A DNA stretch of 64,000 nt from positions 1 through 64,000 of IMG/VR virus record IMGVR_UViG_3300045970_000455, one strand, 5' to 3'. Under the pieces are notes generated by a model. That model searched no databases. It saw nothing but the letters and a program-made list of their open reading frames with translations, and was not told the DNA's origin. Below, piece after piece: positions 21,401 through 55,951 of this stretch. Origin of the DNA: a virus. A program made the position numbers and the translations under genes. Within the stretch, counting starts at the first letter, position 1. Each line of letters begins with the position of its first letter.

Positions 21401-21730
21401 TTATACAGCGAAACTCTGTCCGCAACCACATGTTGAGCTGCTGTTTGGGTTTTGTATTACAAACTGAGAACTCATTAGTTCTTCTTTATAGCTTACAGTA
21501 GATCCTACCAAATATTGATAGCTCATGGCATCCACAATAATAGTGACTCCGTCTTTTACTATTTCTGTATCATCCTCGGCTACTTCTTTATCAAAAGTAA
21601 AACCATAAGAAAATCCCTGGCATCCACCACCTTGCACAAATATCCTAAGTTTCTGTTCGGGGTCGCCGTCATCTATTATGAGGTCACGTATTTTGTTTAT
21701 TGCCGAATCTGCGAATACGATTGGTTCCAT
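21401..21730 (-). CDS. iscA: A-type iron-sulfur carrier (IscA/ErpA family)
   Basis: The 109-aa protein keeps the three cluster-binding cysteines: Cys37 in [11 protein letters not shown] and Cys101/Cys103 in [18 protein letters not shown] is closest to the ErpA type. A-type carriers receive an Fe-S cluster from a scaffold and pass it to target enzymes. It is joined to iscU by a TAATG stop-start overlap, so the pair is translated in tandem. No cysteine desulfurase gene is present in the window, so sulfur must come from the host. Confidence 0.9.
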
Positions 21731-22104
21731 TAACGTGTTTTCCTATAATCTGCTATGGCTGCTTTAACAGCATCCTCTGCCAATATGCTACAATGTATTT
21801 TTACGGGTGGTAGGGCTAATTCTTCCGCTATTTCTGAATTTTTAATAGTAGCTGCTTGACCTACAGTCTTGCCTTTAACCCATTCTGTCACTAAACTGGA
21901 TGAAGCAATCGCTGAACCACACCCATAGGCCTTGAACTTTGCATCAGTAATGATTTCATCTTCTACCTTTATTTGTAGGCACAAAACATCTCCGCATGCC
22001 GGGCTCCCTACCATTCCTGTTCCTACAGTAGGATCTCCCTTTTCAAACTTTCCAACATTACGAGGATTATTATAGTGATCCAACACTTTTTCGGAATATG
22101 CCAT
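21730..22104 (-). CDS. iscU: Iron-sulfur cluster scaffold IscU
   Basis: The 124-aa protein is nearly full length and highly similar to proteobacterial IscU. Cluster ligands Cys37, Asp39, Cys62 and Cys105 are present, and LPPVK (98-102), the HscA-binding motif, is intact in [15 protein letters not shown]. IscU assembles [2Fe-2S] clusters on a scaffold and hands them to carriers. The close match suggests recent gain from a bacterial host. It is coupled by TAATG to the virion-type gene upstream and to iscA downstream, in a late-promoter operon. Confidence 0.93.
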
Positions 22105-22685
22105 TATAGCCTCCCGTAAGCATTACCTGTCAGTGGTTCGTTTGTTCCGTGATACGCTTTATCGTCATATCCGTGTATAGGAGATAATATACCTTCTCTT
22201 TCAGTCTTTGATTGTGTGTTATCTGTGAATCGATACATTTGGTCTGGCATAACACGCTTAAACCATTCTGCTACCATAGGGCGCACATCACGGTTAGGTT
22301 CCGTGTCTTCCAATATACGCAACTCATCCGAGAATGCATCATCCTTGATAATATCTTGCAAGAATACTTCTGCAACACACGCCGGAATAGGTCTTGACAT
22401 AATCTCTTCCACTAAGTCAAAATCTTCGTTTGATATAGGTAGCTTATGAATGGCTTCCATAACCTTTATTTCATTTATACTTTCTATTGTAGCTTTTAAC
22501 TCTGTATAATCTTTACGCAGTTCTTTTTGTAAAAGCCCTTTTTTCGCTTTCGGAGTAGATGGGTCGCCAATCATATCTACATATTTGTCCATGCGTTGTT
22601 GTAAGGCGTTTAGGTTGGCTATCTTCTTTTTAGATAGACTTTTATCGTTCATCCCCTTCGGTAATAATAGTTCTAAGATTTTCAT
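22104..22685 (-). CDS. Hypothetical late protein, 193 aa, MKILELLLP start
   Basis: The product is mainly helical and charged (residues 10-120), with a polar C-terminal region (NTQSKTEREGILSPIHGYDDK). The N-terminus MKILELLLPKG resembles those of other late proteins here. It is linked by TAATG overlaps to the glycine-rich fibre protein upstream and to iscU downstream. Function unknown; a virion or assembly role is likely from position. Confidence 0.65.
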   Translation of the reverse strand: MKILELLLPKGMNDKSLSKKKIANLNALQQRMDKYVDMIGDPSTPKAKKGLLQKELRKDYTELKATIESINEIKVMEAIHKLPISNEDFDLVEEIMSRPIPACVAEVFLQDIIKDDAFSDELRILEDTEPNRDVRPMVAEWFKRVMPDQMYRFTDNTQSKTEREGILSPIHGYDDKAYHGTNEPLTGNAYGRL

Positions 22686-23143
22686 TATGAATACACTATC
22701 ACAACAATACCACTACCACCGTTTCCACCCAGCGCTGATGCACCGCCCCAAATGTAACCGTTGCCGCCACCACCGCCACCTTGATTAGTTAAACCTGCTG
22801 CGCCAGGATTAGCAGCACCACTATTGCCCCCATCTCCGCCGCCTGTACCTGCTGTACCACCCAGGTGAAATCCATTATCGCCGGTACCGCCACCACCGCC
22901 ACCGCAACCTGTAAAAATATATCCTACCGCAGTGGATAAAATAGACATTCCTGCTCCACCATTCTTGCCGCTACCAGCAGATACGGCGCCACCGCCCCCG
23001 CCACCGTATTGATTTTCTAAACCAAGACCGCCATCGTTACCTTGGCCTACGTAGCCATCACCGACGGTGCCGCCATTAAAATAAGGTGTTCTGCCGCCAC
23101 CACTACCGCCTGGTTTTCCGCTTATTCCTGTACCTGTTGTCAT
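22685..23143 (-). CDS. Glycine-rich fibre/adhesin C-terminal part, 152 aa
   Basis: The product is about 45% glycine in runs such as YGGGGGGAVSAGSG and GCGGGGGGTGDNG, and ends in GGSGIVVIVYS, the typical last strand of phage glycine-rich adhesin domains. Those domains form polyglycine II lattices at fibre tips, as in T4-like gp38. It starts 13 nt after the Hint-carrying gene with its own GGAG site. Together with that gene it looks like one glycine-rich domain split in two by the Hint insertion. Confidence 0.75.
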   Translation of the reverse strand: MTTGTGISGKPGGSGGGRTPYFNGGTVGDGYVGQGNDGGLGLENQYGGGGGGAVSAGSGKNGGAGMSILSTAVGYIFTGCGGGGGGTGDNGFHLGGTAGTGGGDGGNSGAANPGAAGLTNQGGGGGGNGYIWGGASALGGNGGSGIVVIVYS

Positions 23144-23156
23144 TATTTACTCCGAA

Positions 23157-24149
23157 TTAGTTCACTGTGTCGGGTTCTTTCTTAAGATTATGACTTAACA
23201 AACCATTGTTCACGTATGTGTGAGCGTCCTTGACGGTGATCTTGATTACTTCGCCACGATTGTATTTTGAAACACTAACTACCGCATTCGGAACTGATGG
23301 TCCTATTAGCATATCACTTGGTTTGAGAAGCGACAGTTGAACCTGTGTACCATCAACCATGAACATCGGATGATTGAACGATGCCGTTAGTGTCCTGCCG
23401 TTTTCCATTGTCAGCACCCAACGATCGTTGACATCTGGTGTAACTGCCTCAACCTCGAACGAACCCCATACACCTGTTGTTTCGTGTCTTGTCCACACAT
23501 ATTGACCTGCTTGAAGCATGTCTGCTCTAACCCATGACTGATTGGCAAGAAGAATCATTTCCCATGGCGCTGGGCAACCGCCACTGCCGCCACCCCCGCC
23601 ACCCCCGAGGCCGCCACCAGATACCACTGTTGCTACATCGCCACCGCCACCCCCGCCGCCATATGCTATAGCGGTACTGTTAAACGAGGATGATACACCA
23701 TCTGCCCCCTGAACGTTGAGCCCTGATGCTGCGCCGCCTGCGCCTACGACAATCGGTATTACGGCCCCGGGCGTAACGCTTAGTGTTGTATGAACATAAC
23801 CACCTGCTCCACCTCCACCTCCACCTTCTAGTGTACCTATACTGCCACCTGATCCACCGCCACCTACTGTTAAAACTTCAACTGATGTAACCCCTGCAGG
23901 AACAGTCCAACTTTGGCTAGATGTAAATGTCTGGCTAAAATATTTAGATGCTCCGTGGAAGCTATCAAGACTAAGTGCTCCGCTTGTTGGTACAAAAGTG
24001 CTTGCACCGTGTGGTGATCCTTTTATAAACGACTTCACGTATGTCCCATTACGATACAGTTGTGACAAAGAAACGGGTGTGCCAGGTACTGAAAATTCAG
24101 TGCCTATAGCAGATAATGATATTGAGTTTGGATATACCGGTAATGTCAT
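23157..24149 (-). CDS. Glycine-rich fibre protein with a C-terminal Hint (bacterial intein-like) domain
   Basis: The 330-aa protein has three parts. Residues 1-70 are a fibre N-terminus typical of T4-like phages (VPTSGALSLDSFHGAS). Residues 71-191 are strands plus a glycine-rich domain (GGGGSGGS, GGGGGGGD, GGLGGGGGGGSGG). Residues 192-321 are a Hint domain: it starts at Cys192 (CPAPWEMILLANQSWVRADM), holds a T-x-x-H-like block (TASFNHPMF) and ends AHTYVNNGLLSHN. The residue after His320-Asn321 is Leu, not Cys/Ser/Thr, so it fits a BIL-type Hint domain rather than a splicing intein. Cleavage or attachment chemistry is therefore plausible; splicing to the next gene product is not established. 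Confidence 0.8.
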   Translation of the reverse strand: MTLPVYPNSISLSAIGTEFSVPGTPVSLSQLYRNGTYVKSFIKGSPHGASTFVPTSGALSLDSFHGASKYFSQTFTSSQSWTVPAGVTSVEVLTVGGGGSGGSIGTLEGGGGGGAGGYVHTTLSVTPGAVIPIVVGAGGAASGLNVQGADGVSSSFNSTAIAYGGGGGGGDVATVVSGGGLGGGGGGGSGGCPAPWEMILLANQSWVRADMLQAGQYVWTRHETTGVWGSFEVEAVTPDVNDRWVLTMENGRTLTASFNHPMFMVDGTQVQLSLLKPSDMLIGPSVPNAVVSVSKYNRGEVIKITVKDAHTYVNNGLLSHNLKKEPDTVN

Positions 24150-24152
24150 GTT

Positions 24153-24518
24153 TTATCCTAATAACGGGCGAATAACTTCTACCCAACTAATCGTATTCTC
24201 GTCCCACTTATACACTTTTCCATCTACAGGCAAATCAACAGGTGCTGCCCACTGACATGTATTTTCATTTAATACCCAACTATTATATGGTTTTGGCGGA
24301 ATAAATGCATCCCTATCAGCATCATACTTAAATCCTATGCCTGCATAGTTCTTCCTAAATGGTGTTCCACCCAACTTATGCTCTCCGCATAATGTGTTGT
24401 AACTTGTTTGGAACCATGTGGCAGGATCGCCTACGGCACCAGAATCTATAAAATCTTGTTCAGCAACAATAACCTGTGTAACTATATTATTGTTATCTAT
24501 ACATGCATAATGGCTCAT
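24153..24518 (-). CDS. Conserved T4-like late protein, 121 aa
   Basis: The sequence MSHYACIDNNNIVTQVIVAEQ, then WFQTSYNT, GGTPFRKNYAGIGFKYD, PPKPYNSWVLNENTCQW and a final YKWDENTISW, matches a family I recall as very common in T4-like phages of cyanobacteria and marine heterotrophs, where it is linked to tail fibres or other virion parts. Function is unproven. It is the first gene after the late box 24538-24545. Confidence 0.75.
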   Translation of the reverse strand: MSHYACIDNNNIVTQVIVAEQDFIDSGAVGDPATWFQTSYNTLCGEHKLGGTPFRKNYAGIGFKYDADRDAFIPPKPYNSWVLNENTCQWAAPVDLPVDGKVYKWDENTISWVEVIRPLLG

Positions 24519-24604: not shown

Positions 24605-24970
24605 TTAGATACTAAACTGTTCAGCTACAGACTTAGGTACTAAATCCATATTGAGTTCTTTTGCCTTACCGATAACAGCCGGCAAAACAAAATACATGCC
24701 CGGCATTGCAACTAATGCAGCAAACGATGTTGCCTTCACGAGTTCTTTTGCCTTTTCATTTGCTGCTGCGATGTCCTTTGGTGTAGCATCACCTGTCATT
24801 GCTTTTTGATACACTTTTGTCATTTCTTGAGCATTTGCATACTCCGTGGTAACAATAGTTTGTACCTTTTCAAACACATCTTTTGCATCCTTTGGTGTCT
24901 TTGGGATTGCATCGAACATGTCGTTGATTGATTTGAGAAAAGCCTGAGGGGTTTTGATTGATGTAAACAT
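24605..24970 (-). CDS. Small helical protein, possibly phasin-like, 121 aa
   Basis: The protein is predominantly amphipathic helix (SINDMFDAIPKTPKDAKDVF, then KVQTIVTTEYANAQEMTKVYQ and KDIAAANEKAKELVKA), with a hydrophobic stretch SFAALVAMPGMYFVLPAVIG (about 83-103) and an end LVPKSVAEQFSI. The helical part resembles phasins, proteins that coat storage granules, but the match is by eye only. It is alone between a promoter (25045-25073) and a terminator (24563-24586), so it is a single-gene unit. Confidence 0.55.
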   Translation of the reverse strand: MFTSIKTPQAFLKSINDMFDAIPKTPKDAKDVFEKVQTIVTTEYANAQEMTKVYQKAMTGDATPKDIAAANEKAKELVKATSFAALVAMPGMYFVLPAVIGKAKELNMDLVPKSVAEQFSI

Positions 24971-37963: not shown

Positions 37964-40141
37964 ATGAGTTTTATACAGAAGTTATTTTCCAGTAGAGTTA
38001 ATGGTGTAAGTTCCGCTGACTTCGTAGGACAAGAAGGCAGAGTTTGGTGGGATCCTATAACCAATAGTTTCTATAGTGGCAATGGTGTCGCGGGCGGAAC
38101 ACCTATAGGTGGTGGAAGCGGAGTAGGAACAAGCGGCTATAGTGGCTACAGTGGAACAAACGGCATAATAGGCGTTAATGGTTTAAGTGGTTATAGTGGC
38201 GTTAATGGTGCTGCAGGTACAAGTGGCTATAGTGGTACAAATGGCACAATAGGAACAAGCGGCTATAGTGGTACAAATGGTGCTGCTGGAACAGCAGGAA
38301 CAAGCGGCTATAGTGGTACAAATGGCATAATAGGTATAGATGGTTTAAGTGGTTATAGTGGTGTGAGTGGTGCCACAGGAACAAGCGGTTATAGCGGAAT
38401 AAGTGGAGTGAGCGGGGTCTCGGCAAGCCCCTCATCGGGTAGCTTTACAACTGCTGTTTCCTTTTCTACAGTAGGCCCTATCTATATGCCTCAACAAAGT
38501 GTTTCTTCTGTGTTAACCTTTACGTTAGGTGCAGGAACTGTTCAAGGCTCTAGCACGTATGTAAGATTAGTAGCAGATGGAGTAAATGCACCTGTATTTA
38601 CGGGATACACTCAATGGGGTGGGTCAATGGGGTATGATAATCGAAACGGAATCGTCAACCAGATAACATTTTGGTATGACGGGTACGATTATTGGTACTC
38701 AATAGGACAGGCATTAGGTGCGACACCTATTGTGTCTGTTATTCCTACTGTCAGTTCTATAACTGTTCAGAACTCAACTCCATCGTCCGTCGATATACTG
38801 TTCTCTGTTGCTATTGATACAGGTTTCATTCCTAGCTTATCAGCATTTACTGTGTCTGGAAAAACTTTATCTGGTGTGCCTGTTATAAGTGGAAATACAG
38901 TAACGCTAACTGTCATTTCGGCATTCACTAGTGGCCAATCAGCAACAGCAGCATATACTCAGCCAGGAACTAATAACTTGCGTAGCACCACAGCAGGACT
39001 TGTGGCTAACTTCTCCGGAGTATCAGTTACAAATAACGTAGCGTCAGTGGCGTCTGCCGTTACAATGACAGGTCCTACAACCGGTACAGTAAGCGTGGCA
39101 TCTACCAACTTTACATTAGGTGTATCTCCAAATGGTGGAGCCATTGCAGGTACTGTTATAGTTACACCAAACGACAGTGCAGCAGGAGGAACATTTACTC
39201 CTACCTCTGTAAATCTTACAACTGGATCTCCTACAGGAACATTTACATATACTCCTGCAAGCACAGGTGCTAAAACTATAGCAGTTACTAATAACGGTGG
39301 ATTGACAAATCCTGCTAATATTACATATACAGCAGGTGCCGCAACAACAGTTCCTGATGCACCAACAATAGGTACAGCGACAGCTGGTGTAACATCCGCA
39401 ACTGTAGCATTTACTGCACCAGTAAGTAATGGTGGAGCAACCATAACAGGATATACTGCTACTTCATCTCCGGGCGGCTTCACAGGTACGTTGGCTCAGG
39501 CAGGATCAGGAACTATAACAGTTAATGGATTGACTGCTGGTACACCATATACATTTACAGTGACAGCAACAAACTCGGTAGGAACAGGATCGGCATCCGC
39601 AGCGTCTAACTCTGTGACGCCAACTAGTGCATCCTTCCCAAGATTCATTACATTAAGTAATATGACTGAGTCTGGCACAGGCCCTTACACATATCAATCA
39701 ACCAACTCTGGTGGATTTGGCACATCGGGCGGTATATTAAATCAGTCGTTCCAGACTGGTGTTGATGGTACGGTAGATATTACCAATGTGGCTAGGGTTG
39801 AGTTTATATTTGGATTGCAGACAGGTACAGCGTCTGTTGGTGCATTTGGAACATATCCTGTTGCACTTCACACTGCTACGGTTGGTGCCCCATATGCAGC
39901 ATTTACAAGCGGGGTTGGCCAAACAGAGTTGACAACCACAACTAATCAAATAAATGATATTATGAGATTGCGTAGAGTAGGAACCACTGTGTTCGGTGAA
40001 GTTGCTCGTGCTGCTACACCTACCACGTGGATATCTATATACACATGGACAGGTGTGTCAACTTCTGCTATACATCCGGTAGTTAATGTATCCGGGTCAG
40101 TAGCTAATATTACTAACCCAACCACCTCCGGTCTTGCATAA
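37964..40141 (+). CDS. Collagen-like tail fibre with Fn3-type domains, 725 aa
   Basis: After a 50-aa N-terminus (SSADFVGQEGRVWWDPITNSF), residues 56-150 contain collagen-like GYSG-x-x-G repeats (SGYSGTNGIIG and related). Residues 270-560 hold beta-sandwich repeats, including an Fn3 domain (DAPTIGTATAGVTSATVAFT, GYTATSSPGG, LTAGTPYTFTVTATNSVGTG). The C-terminal 150 residues are a separate beta domain. It ends in a TAATG overlap with the SGNH hydrolase gene. Confidence 0.82.
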   Translation: MSFIQKLFSSRVNGVSSADFVGQEGRVWWDPITNSFYSGNGVAGGTPIGGGSGVGTSGYSGYSGTNGIIGVNGLSGYSGVNGAAGTSGYSGTNGTIGTSGYSGTNGAAGTAGTSGYSGTNGIIGIDGLSGYSGVSGATGTSGYSGISGVSGVSASPSSGSFTTAVSFSTVGPIYMPQQSVSSVLTFTLGAGTVQGSSTYVRLVADGVNAPVFTGYTQWGGSMGYDNRNGIVNQITFWYDGYDYWYSIGQALGATPIVSVIPTVSSITVQNSTPSSVDILFSVAIDTGFIPSLSAFTVSGKTLSGVPVISGNTVTLTVISAFTSGQSATAAYTQPGTNNLRSTTAGLVANFSGVSVTNNVASVASAVTMTGPTTGTVSVASTNFTLGVSPNGGAIAGTVIVTPNDSAAGGTFTPTSVNLTTGSPTGTFTYTPASTGAKTIAVTNNGGLTNPANITYTAGAATTVPDAPTIGTATAGVTSATVAFTAPVSNGGATITGYTATSSPGGFTGTLAQAGSGTITVNGLTAGTPYTFTVTATNSVGTGSASAASNSVTPTSASFPRFITLSNMTESGTGPYTYQSTNSGGFGTSGGILNQSFQTGVDGTVDITNVARVEFIFGLQTGTASVGAFGTYPVALHTATVGAPYAAFTSGVGQTELTTTTNQINDIMRLRRVGTTVFGEVARAATPTTWISIYTWTGVSTSAIHPVVNVSGSVANITNPTTSGLA

Positions 40142-48283: not shown

Positions 48284-48681
48284 TTTAGTTCAAATAGTAT
48301 AGCAGATTCTTCTTTATTAAAATCTATAGCTAGTTTATTACCATCGACAGAATGTATTCTCCAATCCCAGTCGGTTCCTTGCACTCCTACATTTTCTTCT
48401 AACCAAGGCCTATATTTTATGTTTGGCTCGTCGTCAAGCGCCTTCATAAATGGTCTGATAGAAGTATGTAATATGTTCATAGTGGTAACCATTCTAGGAT
48501 AATTCATGTATAATATATATTTGGCATTGTCCCTAAACTTAAACTTGAATATATTATAATATGGATGAATGCCCGATGATAAGTTAGATAAAGGTTGTAT
48601 ACTAATGATTTTATCTGCTATCAATGTAGGGTTAACTGTCCTAATCACAGGCATTATTATCTTCTTAAAATCAAATGTCAC
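48271..48681 (-). CDS. Small-box family member with an N-terminal extension, 136 aa
   Basis: The last 50 residues match the family: RPWLEENVGVQGTDWDWRI and IDFNKEESAILFELKWPS. Residues 1-80 are an unrelated beta/helix segment (IRTVNPTLIADKIISIQPLSNLSSGIHPYYNIF). It follows the homing endonuclease gene by a short overlap (ATGA). Function unknown. Confidence 0.65.
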   Translation of the reverse strand: MTFDFKKIIMPVIRTVNPTLIADKIISIQPLSNLSSGIHPYYNIFKFKFRDNAKYILYMNYPRMVTTMNILHTSIRPFMKALDDEPNIKYRPWLEENVGVQGTDWDWRIHSVDGNKLAIDFNKEESAILFELKWPS

Positions 48682-49577
48682 AATAATTTACTCCATATAG
48701 TTGTATAAAGTGATGTCATTTCTTTGCCTATACATTCTTTTTCAATATCTCTTTCATAACTTTCCTTTATTGTTGTATTATTTGTTTTCCACGGATACGC
48801 TTTTTTATCTCCCCTTAATTTTACATCTTCTTCTGTATAATGAAACGGTCCGTGATATTCTAATATTTCTACGATGTTTTCTTTATCACCCCTGTGGCCA
48901 TCCTTAAATACCACTAAATCATATAACACCCATCTTCCATTTCTATATATTCCCCATTCGTGCAACCCTATATCATAGTCGGCATATGCACATTGCGACA
49001 CAGTATAACCTTTCTGAAGTATATATTTCCTAATATATAATGTAGCTTCCTTGCTTGAGTTAGATTTGTCAAATCCGCCTCTTGCAATTTTAGTAGCAAT
49101 TACCTTCTCTGATACAGACTTATTTTGCATAGGACTGCTATAACCATATTTTTCTATATTTGTGGCTCTTCGTTGCATTTTAACAGAGTCGGCCTGGGCG
49201 CCACAAGCTATACCATAATTTTTAAAGCTGGTTTCTTTTTTCTGCATTTTTATCGAATCTACTTTTGATGGATTATCGACTCCATACAATTCGATAAATT
49301 TATCTTTTATTTTATTTTTTATAATATCAGATGATGCGGGATTGGTGGTCCCGTATCTTTCTAAACTTGTAAGTTTAGCATTCTCTTTACCGCATTTACA
49401 ACATCCTATACCTGCTCTATGATCATTTGCGAATTGTGAGAATTCCCCATGAATAGGACAAATAATTATTATCTTCCTACCTGAACCTGTATATACTACC
49501 TTAGAATAATCATAGTATAATGCACCATCTGGTCTGGTTAACTTAATTTTATCAATATATTGTTCTGTTGTAATCAT
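48678..49577 (-). CDS. Putative homing endonuclease, 299 aa
   Basis: The N-terminal half has a Cys/His cluster (ICPIHGEFSQF, GCCKCGKENA) and degenerate repeats (SLERYGTTNPASSDIIKN, ELYGVDNPSKVDSIK, NIEKYGYSSPMQNKSV), as in DUF723-type phage nucleases. The C-terminal half (EILEYHGPFHYTEEDVKLRGDKKAYPWKT, YERDIEKECIGKE) resembles a VSR/PD-(D/E)xK nuclease core. Such proteins are mobile homing endonucleases in T4-like genomes. AAGGAG precedes the ATG and a late box lies at 49593-49600. Confidence 0.75.
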   Translation of the reverse strand: MITTEQYIDKIKLTRPDGALYYDYSKVVYTGSGRKIIIICPIHGEFSQFANDHRAGIGCCKCGKENAKLTSLERYGTTNPASSDIIKNKIKDKFIELYGVDNPSKVDSIKMQKKETSFKNYGIACGAQADSVKMQRRATNIEKYGYSSPMQNKSVSEKVIATKIARGGFDKSNSSKEATLYIRKYILQKGYTVSQCAYADYDIGLHEWGIYRNGRWVLYDLVVFKDGHRGDKENIVEILEYHGPFHYTEEDVKLRGDKKAYPWKTNNTTIKESYERDIEKECIGKEMTSLYTTIWSKLL

Positions 49578-53344: not shown

Positions 53345-55951
53345 ATGAAATCACGAGTATCCCCTGGCGCAACAGTAACAGACGGTGGAAATGTTTCTTA
53401 TTCGGGGCCTGCTCGAATATTAAACACCGCGCAAATGACCGGCACTGGCGCACAATATCTATACGATTTATTTGATGTAAATATTCCTACTCCGTTAGAA
53501 GGACAAGTGCTTACATATGACGGCACGACATTTAAATGGGTAAGCGCAGACATTCCTTACGTATCTATTTTTGCTACAGATATTGTAGTAAATGGTGTCA
53601 CAGTAGGGCGCGGTGAAAATCTACCATTCTCTTTTTATACATATGGGCAGCCCGGTGTAGAATACACCATAGTAACGCCGGACACTTCTGCAATCCCAAC
53701 ACAATTCACTGATGCGGGTGCATCATCAAATACAGAAGGAGTAACCTTTACTGCTACAATAGTACCTAACGGTAATGGAACAGTTATATTTGCTAATACA
53801 AAAAATGTAGCGTTGGGTGAGGGTGCGTTGGCAGGCAATGCGGGTGGTAGATTTAATGTTGCTATAGGCAATGGTGCAGGATCAGCTATAACACACGGTT
53901 CAAGCAATGTTATCATAGGTGGTAATGATGGGTCTTCACTTGTTATAGACAGTATAACATCTCTCGATAATCATATAATATTATCAGACGGTGACGGTAA
54001 TATTAGAGCAGAGGTTGATAACACCGGTATATTTAATATACACGGGGAACTAAGAGTAAATGGTGCAACTGTGGGCGGACTTGGTTCGAGTGGCTATAGT
54101 GGTAAGTCAGGATTCAGTGGATGGTCAGGTGTAAGCGGATTCAGTGGATGGTCAGGTGTAAGCGGATTCAGTGGAGCAAGTGGCTATAGTGGTTGGTCTG
54201 GTACAAACGGCACAATAGGTATAGATGGTGTAAGTGGATACAGCGGCTTCAGTGGTGCTGCACCTGTCGATGTTCCGTACACAGCAACCGGTATTTCTAT
54301 GACGGGCGGTACGCTCAACTCTGGAACACTGGCGTCAATACAAACATTCAATGACGGTAGTGTATATGATGTGCAGGAAGGCGACTTAATCCCCGGGTAT
54401 GATATCCGCATTACATTCACCGGTGTGGTTGATTTTAACAAAGCCATAGTAAATATGTTCTATGATGGCACAGCAGGTCATGTTGTGAATATAGAACTTT
54501 ATAATAATACTTTCAGTCAATGGGACACAATATACACACTGACAGGAATAGAAACAGGATTTAATCAGTTCGATTTAGGTGTTGTATCATCTGTTCCGTA
54601 TATATCGGGCGGAACAGTTATATTAAGGATATATCATGTATCGGACGGAAATATTCTACATAATATTAAAGTTGATTATGTTGCTATATCTCGTGCATTA
54701 CAAGGATCGCAAGGTATACAAGGTATAAGCGGTTATAGCGGTGTAAGTGGTTATAGCGGTGTAAGTGGTGCAGCAGGTGCTACAGGCGTTGGCACATTAG
54801 ATGCGTATGGTAATCTTGCTATCGGCCCTGGGGCATTGGCAAGTGGTACATCCAGTAGTCAAGATAATATTGCAATCGGTGTATGTGCATTAAATAAAGA
54901 TACAGGTGGCGCAAATAACATCGCAATGGGCCGCAAGGCGCTATTTTGTAACCTCGGCGGTGTATCTAATATAGCGATGGGTGTTGCTGCATTATGCAAC
55001 AATACACTCGGTTCTAATAACTTAGCCCAGGGCATTAATACACTCCGTAACAACACAACCGGTTGCAACAACGTTGCGATAGGACTTGGCGCACTATATG
55101 GCAATACAGTCGGGTGTAATAACTTAGCAACAGGTAATCATGCACTATACGGCAATACGGCTGGTAATAATAACTCGGCCCAGGGATACTATTCACTCTT
55201 CTGTAACACTACTGGCAGCAATAACATTGCACAAGGATATAAAGCAATATATACCAACACAAGCGGTAGCAATAATATTGCTATAGGATGTTTAGCATTA
55301 TGCAGCAACACAGTAGGTGATGGAAATATAGCAATTGGTAAAGGTGCTGGTTTATCTTTAGTATCGGGTGGAAATAATACAGTTATCGGTTCTTTACCAG
55401 GCAGTGCAGATTGCAGTAATACAGTGCTTATCGGTGCAGGTACCTGTGAGCGGCTCCGCGTTGATAACAGTGGATTATATGTAAATAACACGTTATTTAA
55501 CTCTGCCGGCGGCACAGGTGTTACAACACTAACCGGATCAACCAGTAACTTAGCACTAATAGTTACCAATATAGCAGAACCGGTGACTGTTTCTGCAACA
55601 GCAGCGACAGGTACAATAGCGTATGATGTTACAACTCAATCAGTATTGTATTATACATCATCGGCAGCGGCAAACTGGACAGTCAACTTTAGAGCAAGTG
55701 CAGGAACAGCATTAAATACAGTAATGTCGATTGGACAGGCCATAACCGTTGTGTTTTCTGTAACACAAGGTGCAACAGCATATTATAATAATGGATGGCA
55801 GGTAGACGGGTCAGCAGTGGTACCAAAATGGCAGGGAGGAGCAGCGCCGAGTTCAGGTAATGTAAGTTCGATTGATGTATATAGTTACACGATTATCAAA
55901 ACCGCTAATGCTACATTTACTGTATTGGCAAGTCAGACAAAGTTCGCATAA
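53345..55951 (+). CDS. Large collagen-like head/tail fibre, 868 aa
   Basis: Architecture: an N-terminal 90-aa domain (LYDLFDVNIPTPLEGQVLTYDGTTFKW), beta domains, a collagen-like GFSGWSGVSG block (about residues 245-305), a beta-sandwich (305-455), another short collagen stretch (about 460-480), and a long shaft of repeats of about 18 residues with the pattern (N-N-I/L-A-x-G-x-x-A-L-x-x-N-T-x-G-S/C) (about 490-690), typical of phage fibre beta-helices. AAGGAAG precedes the ATG. Confidence 0.8.
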   Translation: MKSRVSPGATVTDGGNVSYSGPARILNTAQMTGTGAQYLYDLFDVNIPTPLEGQVLTYDGTTFKWVSADIPYVSIFATDIVVNGVTVGRGENLPFSFYTYGQPGVEYTIVTPDTSAIPTQFTDAGASSNTEGVTFTATIVPNGNGTVIFANTKNVALGEGALAGNAGGRFNVAIGNGAGSAITHGSSNVIIGGNDGSSLVIDSITSLDNHIILSDGDGNIRAEVDNTGIFNIHGELRVNGATVGGLGSSGYSGKSGFSGWSGVSGFSGWSGVSGFSGASGYSGWSGTNGTIGIDGVSGYSGFSGAAPVDVPYTATGISMTGGTLNSGTLASIQTFNDGSVYDVQEGDLIPGYDIRITFTGVVDFNKAIVNMFYDGTAGHVVNIELYNNTFSQWDTIYTLTGIETGFNQFDLGVVSSVPYISGGTVILRIYHVSDGNILHNIKVDYVAISRALQGSQGIQGISGYSGVSGYSGVSGAAGATGVGTLDAYGNLAIGPGALASGTSSSQDNIAIGVCALNKDTGGANNIAMGRKALFCNLGGVSNIAMGVAALCNNTLGSNNLAQGINTLRNNTTGCNNVAIGLGALYGNTVGCNNLATGNHALYGNTAGNNNSAQGYYSLFCNTTGSNNIAQGYKAIYTNTSGSNNIAIGCLALCSNTVGDGNIAIGKGAGLSLVSGGNNTVIGSLPGSADCSNTVLIGAGTCERLRVDNSGLYVNNTLFNSAGGTGVTTLTGSTSNLALIVTNIAEPVTVSATAATGTIAYDVTTQSVLYYTSSAAANWTVNFRASAGTALNTVMSIGQAITVVFSVTQGATAYYNNGWQVDGSAVVPKWQGGAAPSSGNVSSIDVYSYTIIKTANATFTVLASQTKFA
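54110..54175 (+). repeat. Perfect 27-bp tandem repeat in the collagen-like region
   Basis: Two exact copies (54110-54136 and 54137-54163) of a 27-bp unit plus a 12-bp partial copy encode GFSGWSGVS units. The identity at the nucleotide level suggests recent slippage or recombination. Confidence 0.85.

Follow-up and report, generated by a model that had tools for sequence, protein, structure and literature searches.

In the window analyzed here, a stretch of 64,000 nucleotides (nt) that comprises positions 1 to 64,000 of the 75,865-base virus record IMGVR_UViG_3300045970_000455, two consecutive genes (here called gene A and gene B) are, on their sequences, best explained as a single glycine-rich, tail-associated adhesin encoded in two halves. 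The half encoded by gene A is followed by a Hint domain of the bacterial intein-like (BIL) type, which belongs to a family found in environmental phage tail proteins. In this family, a lysine residue lies within four residues of the terminal His-Asn pair, while the nucleophile expected at the +1 position is missing. The overall explanation favored here, a two-gene adhesin with an active C-terminal BIL-type Hint domain whose A and B parts fold together, is reasonably probable.

Gene A has the residues expected of the Hint superfamily, namely Cys192, Ser257-x-x-His260 in block B, His310 in block F, and the terminal His320-Asn321. With the single sequence, family matches are marginal or, as in Pfam, sub-threshold (Intein_splicing, 5e-5; PT-HINT, 0.004). 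A profile of the family made from 48 relatives matches solved Hint structures down to 1.5e-13 (DnaX intein, 1.5e-13; BIL domain 2lwy, 6.5e-13; BIL2, about 1e-11). The AlphaFold model of the domain, based on a 48-row alignment, has a mean predicted local distance difference test (pLDDT) score of 95.9, and the top Foldseek match of this model is the Tetrahymena BIL2 domain (E = 8.8e-11; template modeling (TM) score, 0.84), followed by DnaB inteins, Hedgehog, and the Clostridium thermocellum BIL domain. The Hint blocks that the original prediction had recognized from Cys192 to His320-Asn321 are thus present, the profile, the model, and the Foldseek matches being far beyond chance. As for its class, the features of a canonical intein are absent: there is no Cys, Ser, or Thr at +1 (the residue is Leu322), and the stop codon comes nine residues past Asn321. 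It is not a split intein, since the whole Hint domain lies in gene A and no part of one lies in gene B. Nor is it of the Hedgehog/Hog kind, since it has just a 9-residue tail with no sterol-recognition region and keeps the His-Asn end. A Hint domain with a His-Asn end and without a +1 nucleophile is what is seen in A-type BIL domains, although this class assignment by sequence alone is not decisive. The predicted BIL kind agrees with the lack of a +1 nucleophile and with the intactness of the remaining catalytic residues. From sequence and model together, it is very probably an active self-processing domain of the BIL type.

It was also predicted that the glycine-rich region is broken at the Hint domain and resumes in gene B, and the domain matches bear this out. 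Gene A alone matches positions 3-117 of the 226 positions of PF21722 (Gly_rich_2) with an E-value of 6.5e-15. When residues 1-191 of gene A are joined with gene B, the match extends over positions 3-225 (62.8 bits), and only in this joined form is the full-length Gly_rich_2 match above the gathering score. phrog_2295 is tiled likewise, by gene A at 540-705 and by gene B at 692-846. Furthermore, another virus (L006) has an unsplit protein starting with MTL... that aligns to gene A and then to gene B, with a mutual overlap of about 12 residues between the two alignments (z = 11.3 and 7.9, respectively, over composition-preserving shuffles). The N-terminal module of gene A is common to other environmental phage adhesins (L003-L009), which show 35-52% identity in tblastn over spans from residues 1-77 to 1-99. 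The other relatives seen are single genes without a Hint domain.

The coordinates of the parts are collected in Table 1. The residues Cys192, His320-Asn321, and Leu322 were correctly placed in the prediction, as was the 330-amino acid (aa) open reading frame (ORF) itself. The same applies to gene B, which has 152 aa, is glycine-rich along its entire length, ends with GGSGIVVIVYS, and has a separate start with its own ribosome site 13 nt past the stop codon of gene A. The TAA stop codon of gene A lies at 23159-23157, the GGAG lies six nt upstream of the gene B ATG at 23143, and the open frame of gene B begins one codon before this ATG. The Hint domain had been described as lying inside the adhesin. 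This is true when genes A and B are taken together, but within gene A the domain is C-terminal and, like many family members, is followed by its own 9-residue tail and a stop codon. No RNA elements were found. The tail of gene A, LKKEPDTVN, resembles the tails of the family members in lambda gpI-type proteins. The idea that the A/B junction derives from one between gpI and gpJ was rejected as unproven, since the N-terminus of gene B does not resemble gpJ starts clearly better than shuffles do (fractions of 0.03-0.15).

How common is this Hint domain in phages? Scans with a single sequence or a two-row profile found only one locus (L001), and DNA patterns of conserved motifs were needed to fetch the relatives from IMG/VR. 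None of these patterns touched the residues behind His-Asn, and all family counts given here are among the matches listed. The His-Asn end is present in 180 of 188 full-length domains. Among 75 non-redundant members, the first Cys is conserved in 74, and the block B His and the residues corresponding to His320 and Asn321 are conserved in all 75. A motif, HE.T..WG, is specific to the family. The host proteins include lambda gpJ-like proteins, lambda gpI-like proteins, and tail fibers. Many of the domains are C-terminal, with a Lys-containing tail of 2-14 residues before the stop codon, while others are internal and often have a proline-rich sequence before or after them. In five loci (L159, L189, L214, L236, and L239), the Hint domain is the last part of a lambda gpI-like gene for tail assembly, with a gpJ-like gene immediately after it at a distance of -17 to +1 nt; the gpI-like assignment was tested with phrog_32 for L159 and L239. 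Some loci have two or three Hint domains of this family; these lie in tandem in one protein in L247, L175, and L249, whereas in L256 they are distributed over two ORFs of the locus. A search of 50,697 GenBank phage records with queries from three family branches gave one faecal scaffold, besides terminase inteins, and a search of 390 genomes of one bacterial family gave the seed locus L078 alone. The family is thus frequent in environmental phage tail proteins, but GenBank phages almost entirely lack it. A literature search that lacked most subscription journals gave no paper on phage-tail Hint domains, and this large family is nearly undescribed.

The residues behind His-Asn follow a rule. 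A Cys, Ser, or Thr at +1 was found in none of the 75 non-redundant relatives, in none of 121 domains in the non-redundant set NR90, and in 1 of 90 in NR70. A Lys residue lies between +1 and +4 in all domains of NR90 (121/121), NR70 (90/90), and NR50 (35/35), while farther downstream Lys amounts to 2.6-3.4% per position. Arg has about the same background as Lys, yet it is rare at +1 and +2. On a tree of 90 domains, the register of the Lys residue has shifted at least 14 times, and at least seven shifts are forced by well-supported branches. As judged from these many shifts, the Lys residue is kept while its position varies. As an outside control, Hint domains from bacterial genomes of several phyla were collected, mostly by a profile cut at the Asn residue (59 non-redundant domains). 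Lys at +1 or +2 was found in 12 of the 27 domains without a +1 nucleophile versus 1 of the 32 with one (Fisher p = 2.3e-4), where L078, itself a member of the phage family, is counted among the 12 and related sequences are not independent. Many of the remaining 15 domains have a Cys residue at +2 to +6. In the bacterial Hint loci L296-L318 and L381-L486, domains without a +1 nucleophile thus tend to have either Lys at +1/+2 or a Cys displaced to +2 to +6, which suggests displaced nucleophiles in general. The Lys pattern is as would be expected of a substitute nucleophile, which is a correlation and not proof.

The proposed processing has four steps. First, an N-S acyl shift at Gly191-Cys192, aided by His260, would produce a thioester. 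Second, Asn321 would cyclize with the aid of His320 and His310, and the tail would be released. Third, either water or one of the lysines close behind Asn321 (Lys323 or Lys324) would resolve the thioester. The Hint domain would thereby be lost, and the gene A product would terminate at Gly191, either bare or bound to the short tail. These three steps are proposed because BIL domains without a +1 nucleophile are known to undergo mainly cleavage (PMC7664689; PMC7765530), while BIL2 is reported to make an isopeptide bond between the C-terminus of the N-side part and a lysine epsilon amine (PMC8616854). The mature end at Gly191 would lie half-way through the glycine-rich domain, whose remaining half comes from gene B. 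Fourth, residues 1-191 of gene A and the gene B product would fold together non-covalently to complete the domain. Non-covalent folding is the simplest way in which the two could function jointly, and I give it an even chance, while covalent joining of A and B is improbable. It had been suggested that the Hint domain might join the two halves; no evidence for this was found, and in none of the other family members examined does the following gene continue a glycine-rich region. Of the other suggested roles, self-cleavage and transfer to another nucleophile are plausible, and the invariant Lys close behind His-Asn gives the latter idea a more definite form. Lys323 and Lys324 are present as potential acceptors for the N-side thioester, by availability alone. 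That lysine is the acceptor is proposed tentatively, from the sequence pattern and the analogy with BIL2. It is somewhat doubtful that the family makes isopeptide-linked (branched) tail proteins, in which a Lys shortly past the terminal Asn would replace the +1 Cys, Ser, or Thr, a reaction that would here take place where an adhesin is divided between two genes.

Plain BIL cleavage comes close to an even chance. In this case, water would resolve the thioester, gene A would be trimmed to 191 residues, the Lys residue would serve cleavage chemistry or folding rather than act as an acceptor, and gene B would work beside gene A. The mainly cleaved products of known BIL domains (PMC7664689; PMC7765530) and the intact catalytic residues fit this explanation, but it poorly explains the preference for Lys over Arg, the register that slides while the residue is kept, and the link to the missing +1 nucleophile. 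It is unlikely that the Hint domain, inserted with a stop codon, inactivated the adhesin and left gene B as a relic. In its favor, the pair occurs in a single genome and the relatives lack the entire cassette, but gene B is an intact ORF of 152 codons with a suitably positioned ribosome site and encodes the C-terminal half in full, and a stop codon after a short Lys-containing tail is the norm of the family rather than a scar. A Hog-like transfer in trans, in which an outside nucleophile such as a lysine of gene B or an amine of the host surface attacks the Gly191 thioester and the fiber thereby becomes covalently bound to the gene B product or the host, is quite unlikely. BIL2 is known to conjugate ubl4 to other substrates via lysine (PMC8616854), Lys10 of gene B is near its start, and the host proteins of the family are tail-tip and fiber proteins; however, no other C-terminal member examined precedes a glycine-rich gene, and the invariant Lys of the domain's own tail and the invariant Asn suit cis reactions. 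Finally, although genes A and B are only 13 nt apart, an A-B fusion protein made by frameshifting or readthrough past the Hint domain is practically excluded by the sequence, since gene B is in another frame that is closed by a TAA two codons before the ATG and no single frameshift or readthrough can join the genes.

Several points weigh against the favored explanation of a two-gene adhesin processed by its Hint domain. Gene B alone matches Gly_rich_2 weakly (positions 103-225, E about 1), and alignments of glycine-rich sequences are easily obtained and error-prone, though the shuffles speak against chance. The A/B pair is known from one genome: with gene B as the query, no other copy of the arrangement was found, and of the C-terminal Hint domains examined, only that of the window is followed by a glycine-rich gene. 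The Lys residue could instead help the Asn cyclization or be structural. In BIL2, the acceptor Lys lies in the downstream ubiquitin-like domain ubl5 and not necessarily at +1 to +4. For gene A and other C-terminal members, the sole gain from splicing would be a short tail, which is of uncertain benefit.

Compared with known systems, the Hint domain of gene A resembles A-type BIL domains such as C. thermocellum 2lwy in fold (TM score, 0.84), the block B His, the terminal His-Asn, and the lack of a +1 nucleophile. Both groups also occur in variable surface-type host proteins. Unlike A-type BIL domains, the phage family has tail proteins as hosts, Lys at +1 to +4 without exception, and the HE.T..WG motif, and its sequence similarity to 2lwy is modest (profile E = 6.5e-13). 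Tetrahymena BUBL1 BIL2 (6y75, 6tmm) is the best structural match, but it is eukaryotic, lies between ubiquitin-like domains, is activated by Zn, and has about 16% identity. Class 1 inteins, such as the Corynebacterium phage terminase intein (32% identity), have the fold and blocks A, B, F, and G in common with the gene A domain. In contrast to them, gene A has no +1 Cys, Ser, or Thr and no in-frame downstream extein, and its insertion site is no conserved enzyme center. In fractured genes with split inteins, a phage gene likewise consists of two ORFs, and an intein-type domain marks the point of division. Here, gene A holds the whole Hint domain and no intein half is encoded by gene B, and thus classical trans-splicing is excluded.

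Genes A and B form a cassette with a phrog_7759-like gene. This stretch is missing from most syntenic relatives, in which the flanking genes (22104-22685 below and 24605-24970 above) directly adjoin, and in L273 a different ORF of 317 aa occupies the slot (L273:3391-4344). Thus, acquisition of the adhesin as part of an accessory cassette is most likely. The sequence of L272, a close strain with 98% identity, stops short of this region and thus offers no second reading of A/B. The GC content at third codon positions is 0.42 in the Hint domain and 0.25-0.34 in its surroundings, a difference too small to argue from. Elsewhere in the window, two adjacent genes at 21401-22104 look by eye like iron-sulphur cluster assembly genes (A-type carrier and IscU-like), an unusual phage cargo. 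A 299-aa ORF at 48678-49577 with repeated YG..NP/MQ segments looks by eye like a homing endonuclease, and 37964-40141 and 53345-55951 encode large proteins that look structural and contain SGYSGxxG repeats of a collagen-like kind.

Table 1. Features of the adhesin cassette, in window coordinates.
Feature	Position	Strand	Remarks
phrog_7759-like gene, upstream, same cassette	24153..24518	-	121 aa, function unknown; phrog_7759, E = 3e-36
Gene A	24149-23157	-	330 aa: N-terminal module, glycine-rich stretch, Hint domain, 9-residue tail
Gene A residues 1-75, N-terminal module (MTLPVYPN...)	23925..24149	-	tblastn relatives L003-L009
Gene A residues 76-191, first Gly_rich_2 half	23577..23924	-	PF21722; unsplit relative in L006
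Hint domain, gene A residues 192-321	23187..23576	-	Profile, family alignment, AlphaFold (AF2) model, Foldseek
Gene A tail LKKEPDTVN and stop codon TAA	23157..23186	-	Lys at +2 and +3 after Asn321
13-nt intergenic gap with GGAG ribosome site	23144..23156	-	TAA in the gene B frame, two codons before the ATG
Gene B, second Gly_rich_2 half	22685..23143	-	152 aa; completes PF21722 when joined; phrog_2295; L006

The BIL-type Hint domain itself is already known; the interest here lies mainly in a tail-specific Hint family, the lysine rule, and a naturally split adhesin. Tail and fiber proteins of environmental phages commonly contain Hint domains of the self-processing kind, and the family provides a sharp, testable rule for how BIL-type domains might ligate: in the absence of the +1 nucleophile, a Lys residue lies no more than four residues from His-Asn. 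If lysine is indeed the acceptor, phages would make isopeptide bonds in their tails without ATP, which would also be a new ligation class for protein engineering. The split adhesin offers a natural case for studying how a glycine-rich receptor-binding domain is assembled from two parts.
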